In this document: positions 297-10,166 of the stretch, one piece after another
Numbering within the stretch: the stretch's first letter is position 1
Layout: each line of letters begins with the position of its first letter
From: Acholeplasmatales bacterium
Lineage (GTDB): Bacteria > Bacillota_I > Bacilli_A > Acholeplasmatales > Anaeroplasmataceae
DNA: 37,895 nucleotides
Reading direction: 5' to 3'
NCBI GenBank assembly: GCA_024695025.1
Contig: JAILIY010000010.1
Location: 1-37,895 of the forward strand
The notes under the pieces: model-generated
The model's database searches: none
Told to the model about the DNA's origin: nothing
What the model saw: the letters and a program-made list of their open reading frames with translations, nothing else
Translations under genes and position numbers: made by a program

Positions 297-830
297 ATGA
301 ACTTAGGTAATAAAATAAAAGAAAGAAGAAAATTATTACAGCTAACCCAACAGGAATTAGCTAATAGATGTGAATTAACTAAAGGCTATATATCACAGCT
401 TGAAAGTGATTCTGTATCACCATCTTTAGAGACACTTGAGATAATACTTGAAGTTTTAGGTACTAATCTCAGTGATTTTTTCAAAGAAAATGATAATAAG
501 ATGATAGTCTTTAATAAGGAAGAACAATATGAAAAGGAATTTGATTCATATAGACAAACTTGGCTTATCCCAACAGCCCAAGAACATATGATGGAGCCAA
601 TTTATGTAATATTACATAAAAATGGTGAAACATTCCATGATTATCCTCATACAGGAGAGGAATTTGGATATGTTATTGAAGGTGAAATTTTAGTTTGTTA
701 TGAAGATGAGACTTTCGTTTGTAAAAAGGGTGAGTCTTTTTATTTTGTATCAAACAAGAATCATTACATTAAAAACCTTAGTGACGAAGAATCTAAGGTT
801 ATTTGGGTATCATGCCCACCTAATTTTTAA
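297..830 (+). CDS. XRE-family HTH regulator with C-terminal cupin domain (PuuR-like architecture)
   Basis: N-terminal HTH (IKERRKLLQLTQQELANRCELTKGYISQLE) and cupin motifs (PHTGEEFGYVIEGEILVCYEDETFVCKKGESFYF). Confidence 0.9.
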   Translation: MNLGNKIKERRKLLQLTQQELANRCELTKGYISQLESDSVSPSLETLEIILEVLGTNLSDFFKENDNKMIVFNKEEQYEKEFDSYRQTWLIPTAQEHMMEPIYVILHKNGETFHDYPHTGEEFGYVIEGEILVCYEDETFVCKKGESFYFVSNKNHYIKNLSDEESKVIWVSCPPNF

Positions 831-850
831 TTTATTTGGAGGATATATTT

Positions 851-2110
851 ATGAGTAGAGTAATAATTATTGGTTGTGGCGGAGTTGCGAGTGTGGCAAT
901 TCACAAGTGTTGTCAATTAGATGATGTTTTTACAGATTTATGTATCGCATCACGTACTGTTTTTAAATGTGACAAGATTAAAGATGATTTAAAAGGTAAA
1001 ACTAAAACAAATATAACAACTTGTCAAATAGATGCGAGTGATTTTGATGCTTTATGCAAATTATTCAAAGAATATAAGCCTGAAATTGTTATGAATTTAG
1101 GTATGCCTTATTATAATTTAATAATTATGGATGCTTGTTTAGAATGTAATTGTCATTATCTAGATACAGCTGCATATGAACCTATGGATGTAGATGAACC
1201 AGTATGGAGAAAAAGATATGAAAAGAGAGTAAAGGAAGTAGGCTTTACAGCTTATTTTGATTATTCTTATCAATATGAATATAGAGAAAAATTTGAAAAG
1301 AAGGGTTTAATTGCCTTACTTGGTTGTGGCTTTGACCCAGGTGTTACTCAAGCTTATGTTGCATATGCTAAAAAACATGAATTCGATAGAATTGATACTC
1401 TTGATATTTTAGATTGTAATGGTGGTGACCATGGCTATGCATTTGCCACAAATTTCAATCCTGAAATCAATTTAAGAGAAGTATCAAGCGATGGTGCTTA
1501 TTATGAGGATGGTAAGTGGCATTCAGTACCTGCCTTATCTATTCATCAAAAATATAATTTTGATGGCGTAGGTGAAAAGGATATGTATTTACTTCACCAC
1601 GAAGAAATTGAATCTATCGCGTTAAATTTACCTGAAATTAAAAGAATTAGATTTTATATGACTTTTGGTGAAAGCTATATAAGACACATGAAATGTTTAG
1701 AAAATGTTGGCTTATTAAGAACAGACCCAATCGATTTTGAAGGCCATAAAATTATACCTATTCAATTTTTAAAGGCTTTACTTCCAGACCCTGCATCATT
1801 AGGTGAAAGAACTGTTGGTAAAACTAATATAGGTTGTATATTTACAGGTGTAAAAGATGGCAAAGAAAAGAAATATTATATCTATAATATGTGTGACCAC
1901 CAAGAATCATATTTAGAAGTTAATTCACAAGCTGTAAGCTACACAACAGGTGTACCAGCTATGTGTGGTGCTTTAATGATTTTAAAAGGTTATTGGAACA
2001 CACCTGGTGCTCGTACTGTTGAAGAATATAATCCAGATCCATTCATTGAAGCGTTAGATAAATATGGTCTTCCAAAGACTGAAACTTATGACCCTGTTAT
2101 GGTAGATTAA
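851..2110 (+). CDS. Saccharopine dehydrogenase-like carboxynorspermidine dehydrogenase (carboxynorspermidine synthase)
   Basis: Rossmann N-terminus VIIIGCGGVASVAIHKC; overall resemblance to the CANSDH family; next gene is a carboxynorspermidine decarboxylase. ATG at 851 follows a GGAGG RBS; the track start at 836 overlaps that RBS. Confidence 0.88.
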   Translation: MSRVIIIGCGGVASVAIHKCCQLDDVFTDLCIASRTVFKCDKIKDDLKGKTKTNITTCQIDASDFDALCKLFKEYKPEIVMNLGMPYYNLIIMDACLECNCHYLDTAAYEPMDVDEPVWRKRYEKRVKEVGFTAYFDYSYQYEYREKFEKKGLIALLGCGFDPGVTQAYVAYAKKHEFDRIDTLDILDCNGGDHGYAFATNFNPEINLREVSSDGAYYEDGKWHSVPALSIHQKYNFDGVGEKDMYLLHHEEIESIALNLPEIKRIRFYMTFGESYIRHMKCLENVGLLRTDPIDFEGHKIIPIQFLKALLPDPASLGERTVGKTNIGCIFTGVKDGKEKKYYIYNMCDHQESYLEVNSQAVSYTTGVPAMCGALMILKGYWNTPGARTVEEYNPDPFIEALDKYGLPKTETYDPVMVD

Positions 2111-2111
2111 T

Positions 2112-3320
2112 ATGATTAATATCGATTTAAGAGATCCTTTTAAAAGATTTAAAGACATTGATCCATACAAATTGTTTGAAGGTTTAAAGACACCTTGTTA
2201 CATCATAGATGTAAAATCTTTAAAGGACAATGGTAAAATTTTAAAAGATATACAAAATAAGACTGGAGCTAAAATATTACTTGCCCAAAAAGCTTTTTCT
2301 AATTTTAATTTATATAATGTATTAGAACCATACCTTGCAGGTACTGAGGCTTCAGGTTTATTTGAAGCACGACTTGGAAAAGAAGAAATGCCAAATAAAG
2401 AAGTCCATGTATTTTGTGGTGCTTATAGAGATGATGAATTTGATGAATTATTAAAATATGCAGATCACATTGTTTTTAATTCATTAAATCAATTAAAAAA
2501 ATTTGGTCTCAAAGCTAAAGCTTCAGGCAAAAGTGTAGGCATTAGAATCAATCCTGAAAAATCTACACAAAAGGGACCTGCAATATATGACCCTTGTAGT
2601 AAAGAATCAAGATTAGGTATTCCTATTTCTAAATTAGATGAAGAATTAAATGATGATTTATTAAATTTGATAGATGGAATTCATTTCCATACTCTATGTC
2701 AACAAAATTCTGATGACTTGAAAATAACACTTGATGAAGTTGACAAAAAATTTAGTAAATATTTTAAAAACATCAAATGGATTAATTTTGGTGGAGGACA
2801 TCATATAGTAAGAAGTGATTATGATATACCTTTATTAATTGATTGTATTAATTATGCAAAAAGTAAATGGAATGTCGATGTCTATTTAGAACCAGGTGAA
2901 GGCGTTGTTTTAAATGCTGGCTTTTTGTTGACACACGTTCTTGATACATATATAAATAATGATTATTGTTTTGCAATATTAGATACAAGTGCCGCTTGTC
3001 ACATGCCCGATGTAATAGAGATGCCTTATTTACCACCACTTTATAAAGCTGATTTAGAAGGTAATAAAATAGAAGTGAGATTAGGTGGACCTACATGTTT
3101 GTCTGGAGACAACATTGGAAAATATAAATTTATGGATTATCCAAAAGAAAATGATTTGTTGATATTTGGTGATATGGCATTATATACATCATGTAAAAAT
3201 AATACATTTAATGGAATGCCACTGCCTGATATTTATGTTTTAAATGAAGACAATTCATTTGAAAAATTAACAAATTTTGGATACAATGATTTCAAATATA
3301 GATTAGGTAAAATAAAATGA
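2112..3320 (+). CDS. nspC: Carboxynorspermidine decarboxylase (PLP fold-III)
   Basis: Fold-III decarboxylase features: TPCYIIDVKSL, LLAQKAFSN, GIRINPE, SRLGI, GIHFHTLCQ, FGGGHH, EPGEGVV, GDMALYT. Confidence 0.9.
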   Translation: MINIDLRDPFKRFKDIDPYKLFEGLKTPCYIIDVKSLKDNGKILKDIQNKTGAKILLAQKAFSNFNLYNVLEPYLAGTEASGLFEARLGKEEMPNKEVHVFCGAYRDDEFDELLKYADHIVFNSLNQLKKFGLKAKASGKSVGIRINPEKSTQKGPAIYDPCSKESRLGIPISKLDEELNDDLLNLIDGIHFHTLCQQNSDDLKITLDEVDKKFSKYFKNIKWINFGGGHHIVRSDYDIPLLIDCINYAKSKWNVDVYLEPGEGVVLNAGFLLTHVLDTYINNDYCFAILDTSAACHMPDVIEMPYLPPLYKADLEGNKIEVRLGGPTCLSGDNIGKYKFMDYPKENDLLIFGDMALYTSCKNNTFNGMPLPDIYVLNEDNSFEKLTNFGYNDFKYRLGKIK

Positions 3321-4186
3321 TAATTGATATGAGAAATAAGGATATGTCTTTAAGTGAAGCTATTTTTATGGCAAAAGAAGGAGACATTATCCAACTAGAT
3401 GACAAAGAATATTTTGAACAAATCGAATTAAACAAGAAAAATATTACCTTAAAAGGTAATAAAAATACTGTTATAGCTTTTGATGCATATGCTAGTTGTA
3501 TAAATCCTAATACTTCTAAAAAATATGGTACATCTGGTTCTGCAACATTTAGAGTGAAGGCTGGTGCAATTAATTTTAAAGCATACAATATCACCTTTAA
3601 AAATAGTCATATCAAAATGACTAATGATGGTGAACAAGCAGTAGCTTTTAAAAGTGAGGCATCTAATACATTATTAGTTAATTGTAAATTTATTTCATTT
3701 CAGGATACATTATATATGGATGATGGAACTAATAATTTAATTATTAATTCTTATATTGAAGGTGATGTAGATTTCATATTTGGAAGCAGTGATACAGTAT
3801 TTAAAAATTGTATTATAAATTCATTTACCCAACATCAAAGTGCTTATTTTTTAGCACCAGACACATATTGTCAAAATTCTCATGGGTTGGTATTTAAAGA
3901 TTGTGAATTTAGATCAAATGTAGTTAAGACTATACTTGCAAGACGTTGGTTTCCTAAAGGTGCTATTTCACCTGTTTTACCAAGAATATCAATTATTGAT
4001 TCTAAATTTTTAGGTGATATAGAATTAGATGTAATAATTATGCATGAAGGTAATCCAAAAATTGATGTCACAAATTTCAAAAATATTACACTTAATGGTA
4101 ATGATGTACCTGATAAGGGAATAGATGAAACAAATTATGTTGATTATATTTTAAATAAATATAAAACACTAATTGAATTAGTATAA
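3317..4186 (+). CDS. Pectin methylesterase-like (CE8) right-handed beta-helix protein, no signal peptide
   Basis: EQAVAFKSEA, FQDTLYMDDG, YIEGDVDFIFGSSDTVFKNC and ILARRWF correspond to the PME motifs QAVAL, QDTLY, G-VDFIFG and LGRPW. Start overlaps nspC stop (ATGA). Confidence 0.87.
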   Translation: MIIDMRNKDMSLSEAIFMAKEGDIIQLDDKEYFEQIELNKKNITLKGNKNTVIAFDAYASCINPNTSKKYGTSGSATFRVKAGAINFKAYNITFKNSHIKMTNDGEQAVAFKSEASNTLLVNCKFISFQDTLYMDDGTNNLIINSYIEGDVDFIFGSSDTVFKNCIINSFTQHQSAYFLAPDTYCQNSHGLVFKDCEFRSNVVKTILARRWFPKGAISPVLPRISIIDSKFLGDIELDVIIMHEGNPKIDVTNFKNITLNGNDVPDKGIDETNYVDYILNKYKTLIELV

Positions 4187-4201
4187 ATTACATAGTATAA
4201 T
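4173..4201 (+). promoter_or_regulatory. Promoter of the SAM-riboswitch transcript
   Basis: TTGAAT (4173-4178), 17-bp spacer, TATAAT (4196-4201). The -35 lies inside the end of the upstream CDS; the predicted TSS falls at the 5' strand of riboswitch P1. Confidence 0.75.
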
Positions 4202-4206
4202 TTATT

Positions 4207-4290
4207 TGTCATAGAGATGGTAGGAGGGGCAAGCCCTATGATTACCAAGCAACCTGCAATATGCAAGGTGCTAAAGCTTGAATGATGGCA
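4207..4290 (+). ncRNA. SAM-I-clan (S-box) riboswitch aptamer
   Basis: Core matches: AGAGATGGTAGGAGGGGCAAGCCCTATGATTACCAAGCAACC...AGGTGCTAA. P1 TGTCAT (4207-4212)/ATGGCA (4285-4290); P2a TGGTA/TACCA; P2b AGGG/CCCT; P3 TGCA/TGCA; loop CAAG (4230-4233) complementary to CTTG (4277-4280). Confidence 0.88.
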
Positions 4291-4304
4291 CATATAAGAT
4301 TATT

Positions 4305-4332
4305 ATGCCGTCAAAGGACGGCATTTATTTTT
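4305..4332 (+). terminator. Riboswitch expression-platform terminator
   Basis: ATGCCGTC (4305-4312) / GACGGCAT (4317-4324) followed by a T-rich run. Alternative antiterminator: 4283-4290 TGATGGCA with 4306-4313 TGCCGTCA. Confidence 0.88.
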
Positions 4333-4351
4333 TATAGATGGGAGTGATAAT

Positions 4352-6673
4352 ATGTTTGCCGATATAGTTGTTGATATTAAAAACAAACAAGTTAATAGAA
4401 CATATTCATATTTAATTCCATCTCATTTAGAAAATATTATTAAAATAGGGCACAGAGTACTCGTGCCATTTGGCAATTTAAAAAGATGTGGCTATGTAGT
4501 TGATATTAAAGAATTTTCTTGCGTATCAAAAGTGAAAGAAATAATTGATATCATCGATGTCAAAAACATATTGAATGAAGAATTTGTAGATATAGCTAAA
4601 TATATAGCTTTAGAGAATTTTACATTTTATTCTAAAGCCTTTGACTGTATGATACCTTCAATATTAAAAATTAAATATCAAAAGGTAGCTAAAATAATTA
4701 ATAAAGAATTACTTGATGACAATTTAAAAGATATATTCAAAAATAAAAAAGAAATAAGCATTGAAAAATTAGATATTGAAAAACAAAAAATATTATATAA
4801 AGCATATAGTAATAATTTGATTTTAATTGAAAATAAAGCCAAAAGAAGAAAAGATGATGACATTATTAAGATGGTTCATTTAAATGATTATGATAAAGTA
4901 TACAGAAGTAATTCTAAAAAATTATTATTGTCATATTTAAGTGAAATAGATACTGATATCGAACTTGATTTATTAATCGAATCTGGTTATAAAAAAAATA
5001 TTATCAATGAACTTGTATCAGATGGCATTTTATCTATTTATGATAAAGTGATTAATCATTATGAATATAAAGATTATGAAATAGAAGATAATTTTGAATT
5101 AAATAATGAACAACAAGAAGTCTTTAATCAAATCAAATATGATAAATATAATACATATTTACTTCATGGTATAACTGGTAGTGGTAAGACAATGGTTTAT
5201 ATTAAATGTATAAGTGAAGTCTTAAAAAATAATAAAAATGCCATAATGTTAGTACCAGAAATATCACTTACACCACAAATTACATCTATCTTACATTCTG
5301 TTTTTAAAAATAATATAGCAATATTACATTCAAAATTATCTCCAAAAGAAAAATATAATGAATGGAAAAGAATTATTGATAAAAAAACGAGAATAGTCGT
5401 CGGTGCAAGAAGTGCTATATTTGCCCCACTTAAGGATTTAGGTTTAATTATAATTGATGAGGCACATGAAGAATCTTATAAACAATTAAATAATCCTAAA
5501 TATAACGCAAAAGAAATTGCAGAACTTAGAGCTAAAAAATATAATATACCAATTATATTAGGTACTGCAACTCCGGATATTAGTGATTATTATAAGGCTA
5601 CATCAGGAGAATATGAATTATTAGAAATAAAAAATAGAGCTAATAATAAACCACTTCCTAAGGTTGAAGTAGTAGATTTAAAAGAAGAATTAAAATGTGG
5701 CAACAAAAGTGTTTTATCTAAAAAATTACAAAATGAATTAACATATTGTTTAGATAACAACAATCAAGCTATTTTATTCTTAAATAGAAGAGGACATTCA
5801 ACATTTGTCCAGTGTAGAAGCTGTGGTGAGGTAATAAAATGTCCTCACTGTGATATATCTTTGACTTATCATATGAAAGGCAATTATTTAAAATGTCATC
5901 AATGTGGTTATCAAATCGTTAATGTGAGCACATGTCCTAAATGTCAAAGTGACAAGATTAGATATGTCGGTACTGGTACTGAAAAAATATATGATGAAGT
6001 ATCAAAAATGTTTCCTTTGGCCAAAATATTAAGATGTGATACAGACAGTATTAATTCTTTAAAGGATTATGAAGAAATCTATAACAAATTCAAAAATCAT
6101 GAGGCTGATATATTAATTGGTACCCAGATGATTACTAAGGGTTTAGATTTTAAGGATTGTACACTTGTCGGTGTATTAAATGCCGATTTAAGTATTAATT
6201 TTCCTAAATATGATTCAAATCAAATATCATTTAATCTTATAGAACAAGTATCGGGTCGAAGTGGAAGAAGCGATAAGGAAGGTAAAGTAATAATTCAAAC
6301 TTATATGCCTAATCATTTTGTTATAAGATGCAGTAAAAATCATGATTATGATTCATATTTTAATGAAGAAATCCAAAACAGGAGACTTGCTGATTTACCA
6401 CCGTTTTCTGTCTTAATAGAAATAATGGTATCGAGTTTAAATAAAGATATAGCATATGATAATGCCCAAAAGATTATTAGATATTTATCAACTAATAATG
6501 AAAAATCAATAATCTTAGGTCCTACAGAAGATTATATATTTAAAAAGTGTGATAAATATAGATATGTAATTCAAATATATGCAAAAGATGATTTGATATT
6601 AGATAAGATTAAATATATTTATCCTGAATATCAAACTAATAAAGATTGTGAAATAGAAATTACAAGGATGTGA
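4352..6673 (+). CDS. priA: Primosomal replication protein N' (PriA helicase)
   Basis: HGITGSGKTMVY Walker A, DEAH box, zinc-binding cysteines CRSCGEVIKCPHC...CHQCGY...CPKC, GTEKIYDEV, GTQMITKGLDF. Confidence 0.97.
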   Translation: MFADIVVDIKNKQVNRTYSYLIPSHLENIIKIGHRVLVPFGNLKRCGYVVDIKEFSCVSKVKEIIDIIDVKNILNEEFVDIAKYIALENFTFYSKAFDCMIPSILKIKYQKVAKIINKELLDDNLKDIFKNKKEISIEKLDIEKQKILYKAYSNNLILIENKAKRRKDDDIIKMVHLNDYDKVYRSNSKKLLLSYLSEIDTDIELDLLIESGYKKNIINELVSDGILSIYDKVINHYEYKDYEIEDNFELNNEQQEVFNQIKYDKYNTYLLHGITGSGKTMVYIKCISEVLKNNKNAIMLVPEISLTPQITSILHSVFKNNIAILHSKLSPKEKYNEWKRIIDKKTRIVVGARSAIFAPLKDLGLIIIDEAHEESYKQLNNPKYNAKEIAELRAKKYNIPIILGTATPDISDYYKATSGEYELLEIKNRANNKPLPKVEVVDLKEELKCGNKSVLSKKLQNELTYCLDNNNQAILFLNRRGHSTFVQCRSCGEVIKCPHCDISLTYHMKGNYLKCHQCGYQIVNVSTCPKCQSDKIRYVGTGTEKIYDEVSKMFPLAKILRCDTDSINSLKDYEEIYNKFKNHEADILIGTQMITKGLDFKDCTLVGVLNADLSINFPKYDSNQISFNLIEQVSGRSGRSDKEGKVIIQTYMPNHFVIRCSKNHDYDSYFNEEIQNRRLADLPPFSVLIEIMVSSLNKDIAYDNAQKIIRYLSTNNEKSIILGPTEDYIFKKCDKYRYVIQIYAKDDLILDKIKYIYPEYQTNKDCEIEITRM

Positions 6674-6678
6674 TGAAA

Positions 6679-7596
6679 ATGAAAATAGTATTTATGGGTA
6701 CACCTAATTTTGCTTGTCCTATTTTAAAAGCTTTAAGTGAAAAATATGATGTAAAATTAGTTATTAGTCAGCCAAATAGAGAAAAGAAAAAAGGCGTATT
6801 ATTAGATACACCTGTTGCCGGTCTTGCCAAAGAATTAAATTTAAATTTAATTCAGCCTGAATCGATTAAAGATTCTTATGGAAAAATTAAAAATATTGGT
6901 GCTGATGTACTTGTGACAGCAGCCTATGGACAATATGTGCCAACTAAAATATTAAACTTATTTAAATTTAAATTAAATGTTCATGGCTCACTTTTGCCAA
7001 AGCACAGAGGTGGCGCACCTATACAAAGATGCTTAATTGAAGGTGATTTAAAAACTGGCGTCACTATAATGGAGATGTCAAAGGGCCTGGATACTGGTGT
7101 AATGTATTGTAAAAAAGAATATGAAATATTAGATGAAGACAATAATTCAACATTATTTGATAAATTATCTATTATAGGAAAAGATTTATTGATGGATAAT
7201 ATCGATGATATTGTATCTGGTAAAATTAAAGGCGAAAAACAAGATGAAAGTCTTGCAACATATTCTAAAAATATAGATCCTAGCGAAGAAAAAATTGATT
7301 TAAATAATAAGACTAAGGATATCATTAACAAAATAAAGGGCCTATCAATGGAACCTGGTGCCTATTTGGAAGTTAGTGGTATAAAGGTTAAAATCTTTAA
7401 GGCATCAAGCGTAGATAATTTTGATGTTAATGCAAAAGCAGGTACTGTTTTAAATGTTAAAAAATGTATTGTCTTAAAAACTTTAGATGGTGCTATATCA
7501 CTTGATTTATTACTTGTCCCAGGTAAAAAGATAATGAGTGGTAAAGACTTTTCAAACGGCAATAAGATTTTCATTTTAAATAATTCAATTATTTAA
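6679..7596 (+). CDS. fmt: Methionyl-tRNA formyltransferase
   Basis: MKIVFMGTPNFACP, VHGSLLPKHRGGAPIQRCLIEGD. ATG 6679 is better spaced from AAGGATG than the GTG at 6670. Confidence 0.95.
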   Translation: MKIVFMGTPNFACPILKALSEKYDVKLVISQPNREKKKGVLLDTPVAGLAKELNLNLIQPESIKDSYGKIKNIGADVLVTAAYGQYVPTKILNLFKFKLNVHGSLLPKHRGGAPIQRCLIEGDLKTGVTIMEMSKGLDTGVMYCKKEYEILDEDNNSTLFDKLSIIGKDLLMDNIDDIVSGKIKGEKQDESLATYSKNIDPSEEKIDLNNKTKDIINKIKGLSMEPGAYLEVSGIKVKIFKASSVDNFDVNAKAGTVLNVKKCIVLKTLDGAISLDLLLVPGKKIMSGKDFSNGNKIFILNNSII

Positions 7597-7638
7597 TTGA
7601 TTATGTTAAAATAAAAAGTGGAAGCGAGGTGGATTACT

Positions 7639-8982
7639 TTGGGTTTTAAAGATTTAAAATTTAAATTAACAAAAAAAATAAAGAAATCTACTTTATTCCA
7701 AGATAAATTTGGATTTGAAAATGGTATTGATATAACAGATGATAAACAAGTTTTATATCGTAAAAATGTCGTTATCAAAAATATCATTTTAGTATCGAAC
7801 TTGATGTATACTTTAATATTTGCCTTAGCATCTATTTTAGAATCGACAAGTTCAAACTGGTTACTAACTATATTGTTGTTTCCAGTGACATTTATGATAA
7901 ATAAATTCTTATCAAGACTTATTAATAGAGGAAGTAATGATACTTTAAGCCAATATATAGCGATGTATCTGGCCTCATTTTATATGTTTTTGTCTGCGGT
8001 ATTAGTTTATTTAAAATTGAAGGTTCAGTTTGATCCATATTACAATTCTGGTGGTCACGATAATTTGTTGCTTGCAGAATGTGGTTATGTATTGATTTAT
8101 TATTCATTATTAATATGTGCATTCTACCAAGATAAGAAGATGCTTAAAAATATCTTCGCCATCGTTATAGTATTAGTCACATTGTTGAGTTTTGTTGTAA
8201 CTTATCCAATAGTTCAGCATGCCAATAATGATTCATCTATTTTAGTTACTTTTAAAAACCTCGTGAAGTCGGGCGAAATAGTCGATATTATAATAAGAGT
8301 ACTTTTGATTGCCTTGTTTATGATGGTTTTATATATCTATGTTTCGATGACTAATTACATGCAAGAAGAACGTAAAAAGGAACAAACAAAAAGAAGAAAT
8401 GTTCAGGCTAATTATATAAATTCAATAACTAAAGTATTTGATATAGCCTTACCTGAAAGAACTATTTCAGATGACGAAAGGCACGAAAATGAAATTTTAT
8501 GTCTTATGGTATCTAAACTTGCCTCACTTTTGTCATTAAAGCCTGATGAAATAAATGATATGGTAAATTTTACAAAGATTCATATTGAATCTAATGTCGA
8601 TTTTAATTTAGAAGAAACAGAAGCTGAGGATAAAAAATTTAGTGAAGTACGCGACAAAGCTGATATAGGTTTAAAAATTATTGAGCGCGAAGAATTAAAA
8701 CGTAAGGGTGAAGAAATATTACGTTACGTTTTAGATGGTTCAAATGATGATGAATTTATCAAGAGAATGAGAAATTCAATTAAAAATATTGAATCTCAAA
8801 TCATTTTAATATGTGAAATATATATTTCAATGAGAAGTGTTAGAAGTTATAAGAAAGCATATAATCATAAAAATACAATGAATTATATGGAAAAAATGTT
8901 TAAGGTTTATTTTGATTCATTAGTATATGATAGATTTCAAAGGTTTGATACTGATTTTGAAACTATTTATGATGAAGAATAA
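7639..8982 (+). CDS. Multi-pass membrane protein with C-terminal degenerate HD-GYP-like domain
   Basis: Several hydrophobic segments, then IESQIILICEIYISMRSVRSYKKAYNHKNTMNYM, which resembles HD-GYP ARILAVADVYDALTSDRPYRKA. TTG start at 7639 follows an AGGTGG-type RBS; the track start is GTG 7618. Confidence 0.65.
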   Translation: MGFKDLKFKLTKKIKKSTLFQDKFGFENGIDITDDKQVLYRKNVVIKNIILVSNLMYTLIFALASILESTSSNWLLTILLFPVTFMINKFLSRLINRGSNDTLSQYIAMYLASFYMFLSAVLVYLKLKVQFDPYYNSGGHDNLLLAECGYVLIYYSLLICAFYQDKKMLKNIFAIVIVLVTLLSFVVTYPIVQHANNDSSILVTFKNLVKSGEIVDIIIRVLLIALFMMVLYIYVSMTNYMQEERKKEQTKRRNVQANYINSITKVFDIALPERTISDDERHENEILCLMVSKLASLLSLKPDEINDMVNFTKIHIESNVDFNLEETEAEDKKFSEVRDKADIGLKIIEREELKRKGEEILRYVLDGSNDDEFIKRMRNSIKNIESQIILICEIYISMRSVRSYKKAYNHKNTMNYMEKMFKVYFDSLVYDRFQRFDTDFETIYDEE

Positions 8983-9011: not shown

Positions 9012-10166
9012 ATGAAAAGATTTTTTACAAGTGAGAGTGTTACAGAGGGACACCCAGACAAGATTGCAGACCAAATTAGTGATGCAATATTAGATGATAT
9101 TTTAAAAAACGACCCTAATGGTAGAGTCGCTTGTGAAACAATTTGTACAACAGGTATGGTTATGGTATTCGGTGAGATTACAACTAATCACTATGTAGAT
9201 GTACAAAAGATTGTAAGAAACAAGGTAAAAGAAATTGGTTATGACAGAGGTAAATTTGGTTTTGATGCCGATAATTTAGCTGTCATTACAGCAATTGATC
9301 CTCAATCACCAGATATCGCGATGGGTGTTGATGAAACAACTAGCCATGAACAAGGTGCCGGTGATCAAGGTATTATGTTTGGTTATGCATGCGATGAAAC
9401 TGATGTGTATATGCCTATGGCTATTACACTTGCTCATATGCTTGCTAAAAAATTATCTGATGTTAGAAAAGATGGAACACTTCCTTATTTAAGACCAGAT
9501 GGAAAAACTCAAGTTACTGTTGAATATGATGATAATAATAAAATTAAAAGAATTGATACTATTTTAATTTCAACTCAACATTCACCAGAAGTTGATTTAA
9601 ATGATTTAGCAAAGGATATTAAAAAATATGTAGTAGACGCTGTAATACCACATAATTTAGTTGATAAGGATACTAAATTCTTATGTAATCCAACAGGTAG
9701 ATTTGTAATTGGAGGTCCACAAGGAGATAGTGGCTTAACAGGTAGAAAAATTATCGTTGATACATATGGTGGTGCTGCATGTCACGGTGGTGGAGCATTC
9801 TCTGGAAAAGATCCATCTAAGGTAGACAGAAGTGCTTCATATATGGCTCGTTATATTGCAAAGAATATTGTAGCAGCTGGCCTTGCAACTCGTTGTCAAA
9901 TTCAACTATCTTACGCAATTGGTGTTGCAGAACCTACATCAATATTAGTCGATACATTTGGCACAAATAAGGTTTCTGAAGAAGCAATTTCAAATAAGGT
10001 TAAGGAAATATTTAAATTGACTCCACGTGGAATTATCGATACATTAAATCTTAAAAGACCTATTTATTGTCAAACTGCAGCTTATGGTCATTTCGGTAGA
10101 AAAGATATTGATTTACCATGGGAAAAATTAGATAAAGTTGAGGAATTAAAGACTTTATTAAAGTAG
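9012..10166 (+). CDS. metK: S-adenosylmethionine synthetase
   Basis: [74 protein letters not shown]. Confidence 0.99.

Follow-up and report, generated by a model that had tools for sequence, protein, structure and literature searches.

Can a SAM-I riboswitch do without one of its helices? SAM-I serves as a model riboswitch, and textbooks draw it with four helices, the P2 loop being docked at P4. The window analysed here, a stretch of 37,895 nucleotides (contig JAILIY010000010.1) from an Acholeplasmatales bacterium, raises this question, since the original prediction proposed for it an S-box that apparently lacks P4. Our analysis makes it very likely that 4206-4291 is a transcription-terminating SAM-I riboswitch which has lost helix P4, and for which we infer SAM binding and an OFF logic.

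Architecture and class of the aptamer

A cmscan search matched RF00162 (SAM-I/S-box) at 4206-4291 (+) with 54.1 bits against a cut-off of 44.4; its E-value of 6.3e-10 refers to the whole window, both strands and 4227 families. The predicted SAM-clan riboswitch is thereby confirmed, and its proposed span, 4207-4290, was right within a base. RF01725 (SAM-I/IV) gave a weak match at 4204-4328 (30.1 bits, under its cut-off of 41.1), and RF00634 (SAM-IV) was without a match in the whole genome at E-values up to 10. With RF00162 clearly above its cut-off and the other two models below theirs or unmatched, this comparison of the Rfam SAM clan does not support by score the intermediate clan member that had been suggested. 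The RF00162 match is the single one in the genome, a 1.65-Mb draft of 178 contigs and 78% completeness. A model of the P4-less form (R1) gives 4206-4291 91.3 bits, the window copy being one of the 88 R1 input sequences. Conservation was assessed in an alignment of 88 P4-less sequences (A2). Part of it was collected with a pattern fixing CUUG and GAUGG, so that constancy in A2 is partly built in. The following elements were assigned, with their evidence in brackets:

4206-4291, +: SAM-I aptamer without P4 (RF00162, model R1, fold)
4207-4212, +: P1 5' strand UGUCAU, partner of 4285-4290 (sequence, fold, family counts)
4218-4247, +: P2a (4218-4222/4243-4247), kink-turn bases and P2b (4226-4228/4234-4236) (RF00162 alignment, A2 counts, core mapping)
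4230-4233, +: pseudoknot strand 1, CAAG in the P2b loop (complements 4277-4280; covaries in relatives)
4248-4272, +: P3 with the SAM-pocket bases GCAACC...GGTGC (RF00162 alignment, A2 counts, core mapping)
4277-4284, +: pseudoknot strand 2, CUUG (4277-4280), then the four-nucleotide joint AAUG (4281-4284), with the expected place of P4 between the two (sequence, RF00162 alignment, fold)
4285-4290, +: P1 3' strand AUGGCA, overlapping the antiterminator 5' strand 4284-4290 (fold, growing-transcript folding)

The element contains the SAM-I features P1, P2a/P2b, P3 with GCAACC...GGTGC, the kink-turn G-A/A-G pairs and the loop pseudoknot PK-1; the P4 hairpin between J3/4 and P1 is missing. P3 is formed by 4248-4254/4267-4272 plus 4256-4258/4262-4264. 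The kink-turn bases G4224, A4225, G4240 and A4241 correspond to G19, A20, G35 and A36, of which G19 is variable in 20 of the 88 aligned sequences. As predicted, the pseudoknot strands CAAG and CUUG are fully complementary (C4230-G4280, A4231-U4279, A4232-U4278, G4233-C4277), and the second strand runs on into P1. The P4 columns of RF00162 are deleted in the window alignment, and the unconstrained minimum-energy fold consists of P1, P2 and P3 with an unpaired 12-nt strand, A4273-G4284, at the P4 site. Since just four nucleotides lie between the pseudoknot strand and P1, P4 cannot form. The fold energy of the aptamer alone is only slightly below that of shuffled sequences (z -1.2).

For comparison of the core we used T. 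tengcongensis numbering, which is our own mapping onto the window. On this numbering strand 65-68 is CUUG, J4/1 is AAUG and the P4 segment 69-82 is absent. Invariant in all 88 rows of A2 are A6, U7, G11, A12, G43, C44, A45, A46, C47, G56, U57, G58, C59, A61, A87 and U88, most of which appear among the conserved SAM-I positions listed in PMC3764141. Position 24 is a G in the window and an A in 82 of the 88 sequences; A24 is likewise a listed conserved position (PMC3764141). As nearly all checked core bases are kept, the claim of an intact S-box core stands, and 4206-4291 presumably binds SAM. The equivalent of U64-A85 (A2 columns 84-91) is complementary in 93% of the sequences, with marginal covariation (45 of 2000 shuffles reach it). 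According to kink-turn studies, the P2 loop has its receptor in helix P4 (PMC3651934, PMC4316175); consequently, SAM affinity could be low where P4 is absent.

The P4 hairpin is one feature by which SAM-I is separated from SAM-IV (PMC7270179). Because P4 was tested for and found absent, we file the element as a non-canonical, P4-less SAM-I variant despite its Rfam SAM-I score. SAM-I minus P4 describes it best, as does the label of a core common to SAM-I and SAM-IV. A caution follows for Rfam users, as RF00162 pools two architectures. P4 loss had been taken as known in both relatives of SAM-I. This holds for SAM-IV, which is devoid of P4 and has PK-2 and P5, but not for SAM-I/IV, in which the P4 helix is present and PK-1 is absent (PMC6890682). 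In the open literature searched, no description of a P4-less SAM-I was found; its novelty is provisional.

Expression signals and the putatively controlled operon

The original prediction covered neither a promoter nor a terminator. We found candidates for both on the two sides of the aptamer, followed by four genes:

4173-4201, +: promoter-like TTGAAT-17-TATAAT, ending five bases 5' of the aptamer (scan, 10/12 matches)
4305-4334, +: intrinsic terminator, hairpin 4305-4324 and T-rich tail (scan, fold, growing-transcript folding)
4352-6673, +: priA, operon gene 1 (Pfam, NCBIfam)
6670-7596, +: fmt-like methionyl-tRNA formyltransferase gene (Pfam formyl transferase N and C domains)
7618-8982, +: conserved 454-aa ORF, unmatched in Pfam and NCBIfam (position kept in 14 loci)
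9012-10166, +: metK, SAM synthetase (TIGR01034 with 607 bits, Pfam)

The promoter is only suggestive, because four such sites turned up in the region, where 2.2 would be expected by chance. The terminator has the form ATGCCGTC-AAAG-GACGGCAT followed by the T-rich tail. Residues 4306-4312, the 5' half of the terminator, are complementary to the region of the P1 3' strand (4284-4290), so that a competing antiterminator can be drawn. For growing transcripts ending at 4313 and 4318 the minimum is the antiterminator fold, and for a transcript ending at 4324 P1 and the terminator win with -36.1 kcal/mol. A terminator-like hairpin lies within 110 nt in 174 of 185 P4-less loci, in which the complement between P1 and terminator averages 6.4 nt compared with 4.4 nt after shuffling. 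Promoter-like site, antiterminator and terminator together resemble the usual SAM-I OFF layout, and the logic of the switch would be as follows. When SAM is abundant, the ligand would sit between P1 and P3 and keep P1 closed, leaving the P1 3' strand unable to pair downstream. The terminator at 4305-4334 would then form and end the priA-fmt-ORF-metK transcript early. At low SAM, 4284-4290 would pair with 4306-4312 and the operon, including metK, would be transcribed. The fully Watson-Crick four-pair loop pseudoknot may brace the junction where P4 would be, and this stronger pseudoknot probably compensates for the loss of the helix.

The likely feedback target is metK. The first gene of the operon, however, is priA and not a sulfur gene, and metK comes fourth, which counts against the preferred explanation. 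Five genera of the family provided 14 further loci, and in every one a P4-less S-box is followed by priA-fmt-ORF-metK, with metK closing the priA operon. Among 77 distant P4-less loci metK is the first gene in 13. A SAM switch over a replication-restart helicase gene thus presumably results from metK having joined the priA operon. The ORF between fmt and metK is present in 14/14 related loci with 38-61% identity. In a sister genus (g3) the order priA-fmt-ORF-metK is kept, with no detectable S-box in any of 8 genomes. There (L280-L288) the ORF directly 5' of priA encodes in most loci read a membrane protein resembling a transporter S component. Given the absent S-box and this S component-like ORF, control in g3 may have moved or been lost. 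Another genus (g7) has a P4-containing S-box directly 5' of metK.

Upstream of the riboswitch, the region 297-3320 of the window contains an XRE-cupin regulator gene adjoining carboxynorspermidine synthase-like and decarboxylase-like genes. It appears to be a polyamine operon directly preceding the riboswitch operon. A pectinesterase-like ORF (3317-4186) separates the polyamine genes from the riboswitch promoter.

Conservation and spread of the P4-less form

In A2, 95.3% of the cells in P1, P2a, P2b, P3 and the pseudoknot are paired. Fifteen pairs show changes on both sides compared with 8.9 in shuffled data, and the covariation score is 0.300 against at most 0.053 when the alignment is slid. 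A looser pattern gave 64 matches in the class, 58 of them with CUUG. The six others, from three families, carry CUGG/CCAG (four, in G068, G406 and G227), CUAG/CUAG (one, in G404) and CUGG/CCUG (one); hence the pseudoknot covaries in the absence of P4. The P3 loop, 3 nt long in the window, varies freely among relatives, and no conserved covarying pairing between it and the region after P1 was seen by eye in the P4-less alignment.

The P4-less form is not unique to this copy but widespread. Within the family 49 of 50 RF00162 matches read as P4-less, the exception being L042 (G054). The other families of the order have S-boxes with and without P4, and genome G148 has a P4-containing S-box (L071) beside two P4-less ones (L076, L081). 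Such natural pairs make the role of P4 testable. These counts rest on sequences read individually and on model R1, which scores CAAG/CUUG-type and pseudoknot-variant P4-less loci at 66 bits or more, a second type with an inverted pair (C43-G59, described below) at 49-66 and P4-containing loci at 49 or less. Covariance matches of 96-122 nt in some relatives were considered as P4-containing and rejected, since in these P1 had been stretched over linker or terminator sequence.

Of 395 genomes of the class, at least 50, spread over some ten families, matched the P4-less CUUG pattern, as did at least 35 of 392 genomes in a phylum-level draw, where all genomes listed again belong to the same class. 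The reversed control pattern had no match in either set (395 and 392 genomes). The matches listed include Acholeplasma oculi, Anaerococcus tetradius and Anaerovibrio lipolyticus as well as Erysipelotrichaceae, Lachnospiraceae and Ruminococcaceae. Also among the matches listed are a few MAGs labelled Elusimicrobia, Spirochaetales, Synergistes and Alphaproteobacteria, labels behind which mis-binning may hide. Among the matches listed, 132 P4-less sequences are distinct; a P1 of at least four pairs is possible in 130 of them, and in 129 the loop region contains CAAG. The sub-type is found across many Bacillota and in scattered anaerobes of other groups, in some cases immediately 5' of metK. A phage origin was considered and rejected: exact matches were found in just 15 stretches among 2.9 million viral contigs, so the form is not mainly phage-borne. 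One genome (G068) has five P4-less S-boxes, two of them 1.7 kb apart. Several P4-less S-boxes of the order (L330, L332, L333, L329, L328) precede unusual gene clusters, with genes for MoxR-like AAA plus VWA-like DUF2201, macro-domain, ADP-ribosylglycohydrolase and GmrSD-like proteins, or else with a gene resembling N-formylglutamate amidohydrolase.

In some Acholeplasmatales S-boxes CCAACC...GGTGG replaces GCAACC...GGTGC, by which the near-invariant G43-C59 pair is inverted to C43-G59 (L054, L060, L062, L068, L070, L076, L100, L335-L338 and L341-L344, from other Acholeplasmatales). Most of these have a five-pair pseudoknot, UAUAG/CUAUA, and likewise lack P4. The C43-G59 type is rare (9 of 386 genomes); with UAUAG/CUAUA it precedes metNIQ-like genes at seven loci and metK at one. 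Since methionine transporter and SAM synthetase genes follow it, this type supports SAM sensing without P4. In two further loci (L075, L077) the inverted pair occurs together with the CAAG/CUUG pseudoknot, and the genes downstream are of unknown function. A wider reading, whose chances we regard as even, takes the P4-less S-boxes for a sub-class of SAM-I that is widespread but undescribed. Its pseudoknot-braced core would equal what SAM-I and SAM-IV share and would have been reached more than once (CAAG/CUUG, and C43-G59 with UAUAG/CUAUA before metNIQ), P4 being dispensable where the loop pseudoknot is fully Watson-Crick. Conserved across many lineages before genes for SAM synthesis and methionine uptake, the P4-less form shows what may be the smallest possible working core of the SAM clan.

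Alternative explanations and known SAM riboswitches

A ligand other than SAM, such as spermidine, would be suggested by the existence of spermidine-sensing SAM-I variants (PMC10853860) and by the genes directly upstream (carboxynorspermidine synthase-like 836-2110 and decarboxylase-like 2112-3320, both under curated cut-offs). However, the changes in these variants fall in J1/2 and the internal loop of P3, whereas the window keeps G11, A12, A45, A46, C47, U57 and G58, and the polyamine genes lie upstream of a controlled operon which ends in metK. We therefore consider spermidine sensing highly improbable. Equally improbable is membership in, or a transition toward, SAM-IV or SAM-I/IV, with PK-2 and P5 supplied by downstream sequence. 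Like SAM-IV, 4206-4291 lacks P4 and lets the pseudoknot strand enter P1, and the weak RF01725 match even extends to 4328. Yet neither model reaches its cut-off, and in its kink-turn bases the element follows SAM-I. The hairpin downstream has a T-run and is a terminator. With only 3 nt and free variation among relatives, the P3 loop can hardly offer a PK-2 partner.

If the S-box were degenerate, in decay and no longer able to switch, the missing P4 would be accounted for, and loss of control does occur in the family, as the eight g3 genomes keep the operon without a detectable S-box. Decay would not, however, maintain an invariant core across 88 sequences; many families have retained the P4-less form, with compensatory changes, and terminator and antiterminator are kept. 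This explanation is thus very unlikely as well, and a switching SAM-I riboswitch without P4 remains our preferred reading.

Compared with SAM-I (RF00162; T. tengcongensis, 2GIS), the window element has the same P1, P2a, kink-turn, P2b, P3, PK-1 and core bases, the terminator/antiterminator OFF layout and metK as target. It differs in being about 14 nt shorter between the pseudoknot strand and J4/1. Its pseudoknot consists of four Watson-Crick pairs in contrast to three plus a U-U at the second place in T. tengcongensis (2GIS), with which the Rfam consensus, cuGG with CCug, agrees. Position 64-85 is purine-pyrimidine (G/A-U/C) here and U-A in T. tengcongensis. With SAM-IV (RF00634) the element shares the missing P4 and the PK-1 strand continuing into P1, but it has no PK-2 or P5, a SAM-I kink-turn, a 3-nt P3 loop and a terminator at the place of P5. 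The SAM-binding core is also common to SAM-I/IV (RF01725), in which P4 and PK-1 are reversed: the window element has PK-1 and lacks P4. The spermidine-binding SAM-I variants (PMC10853860) resemble it in SAM-I architecture and as OFF switches acting by termination, but they alter J1/2 and the P3 internal loop, and the window element is unchanged at the conserved positions of both.
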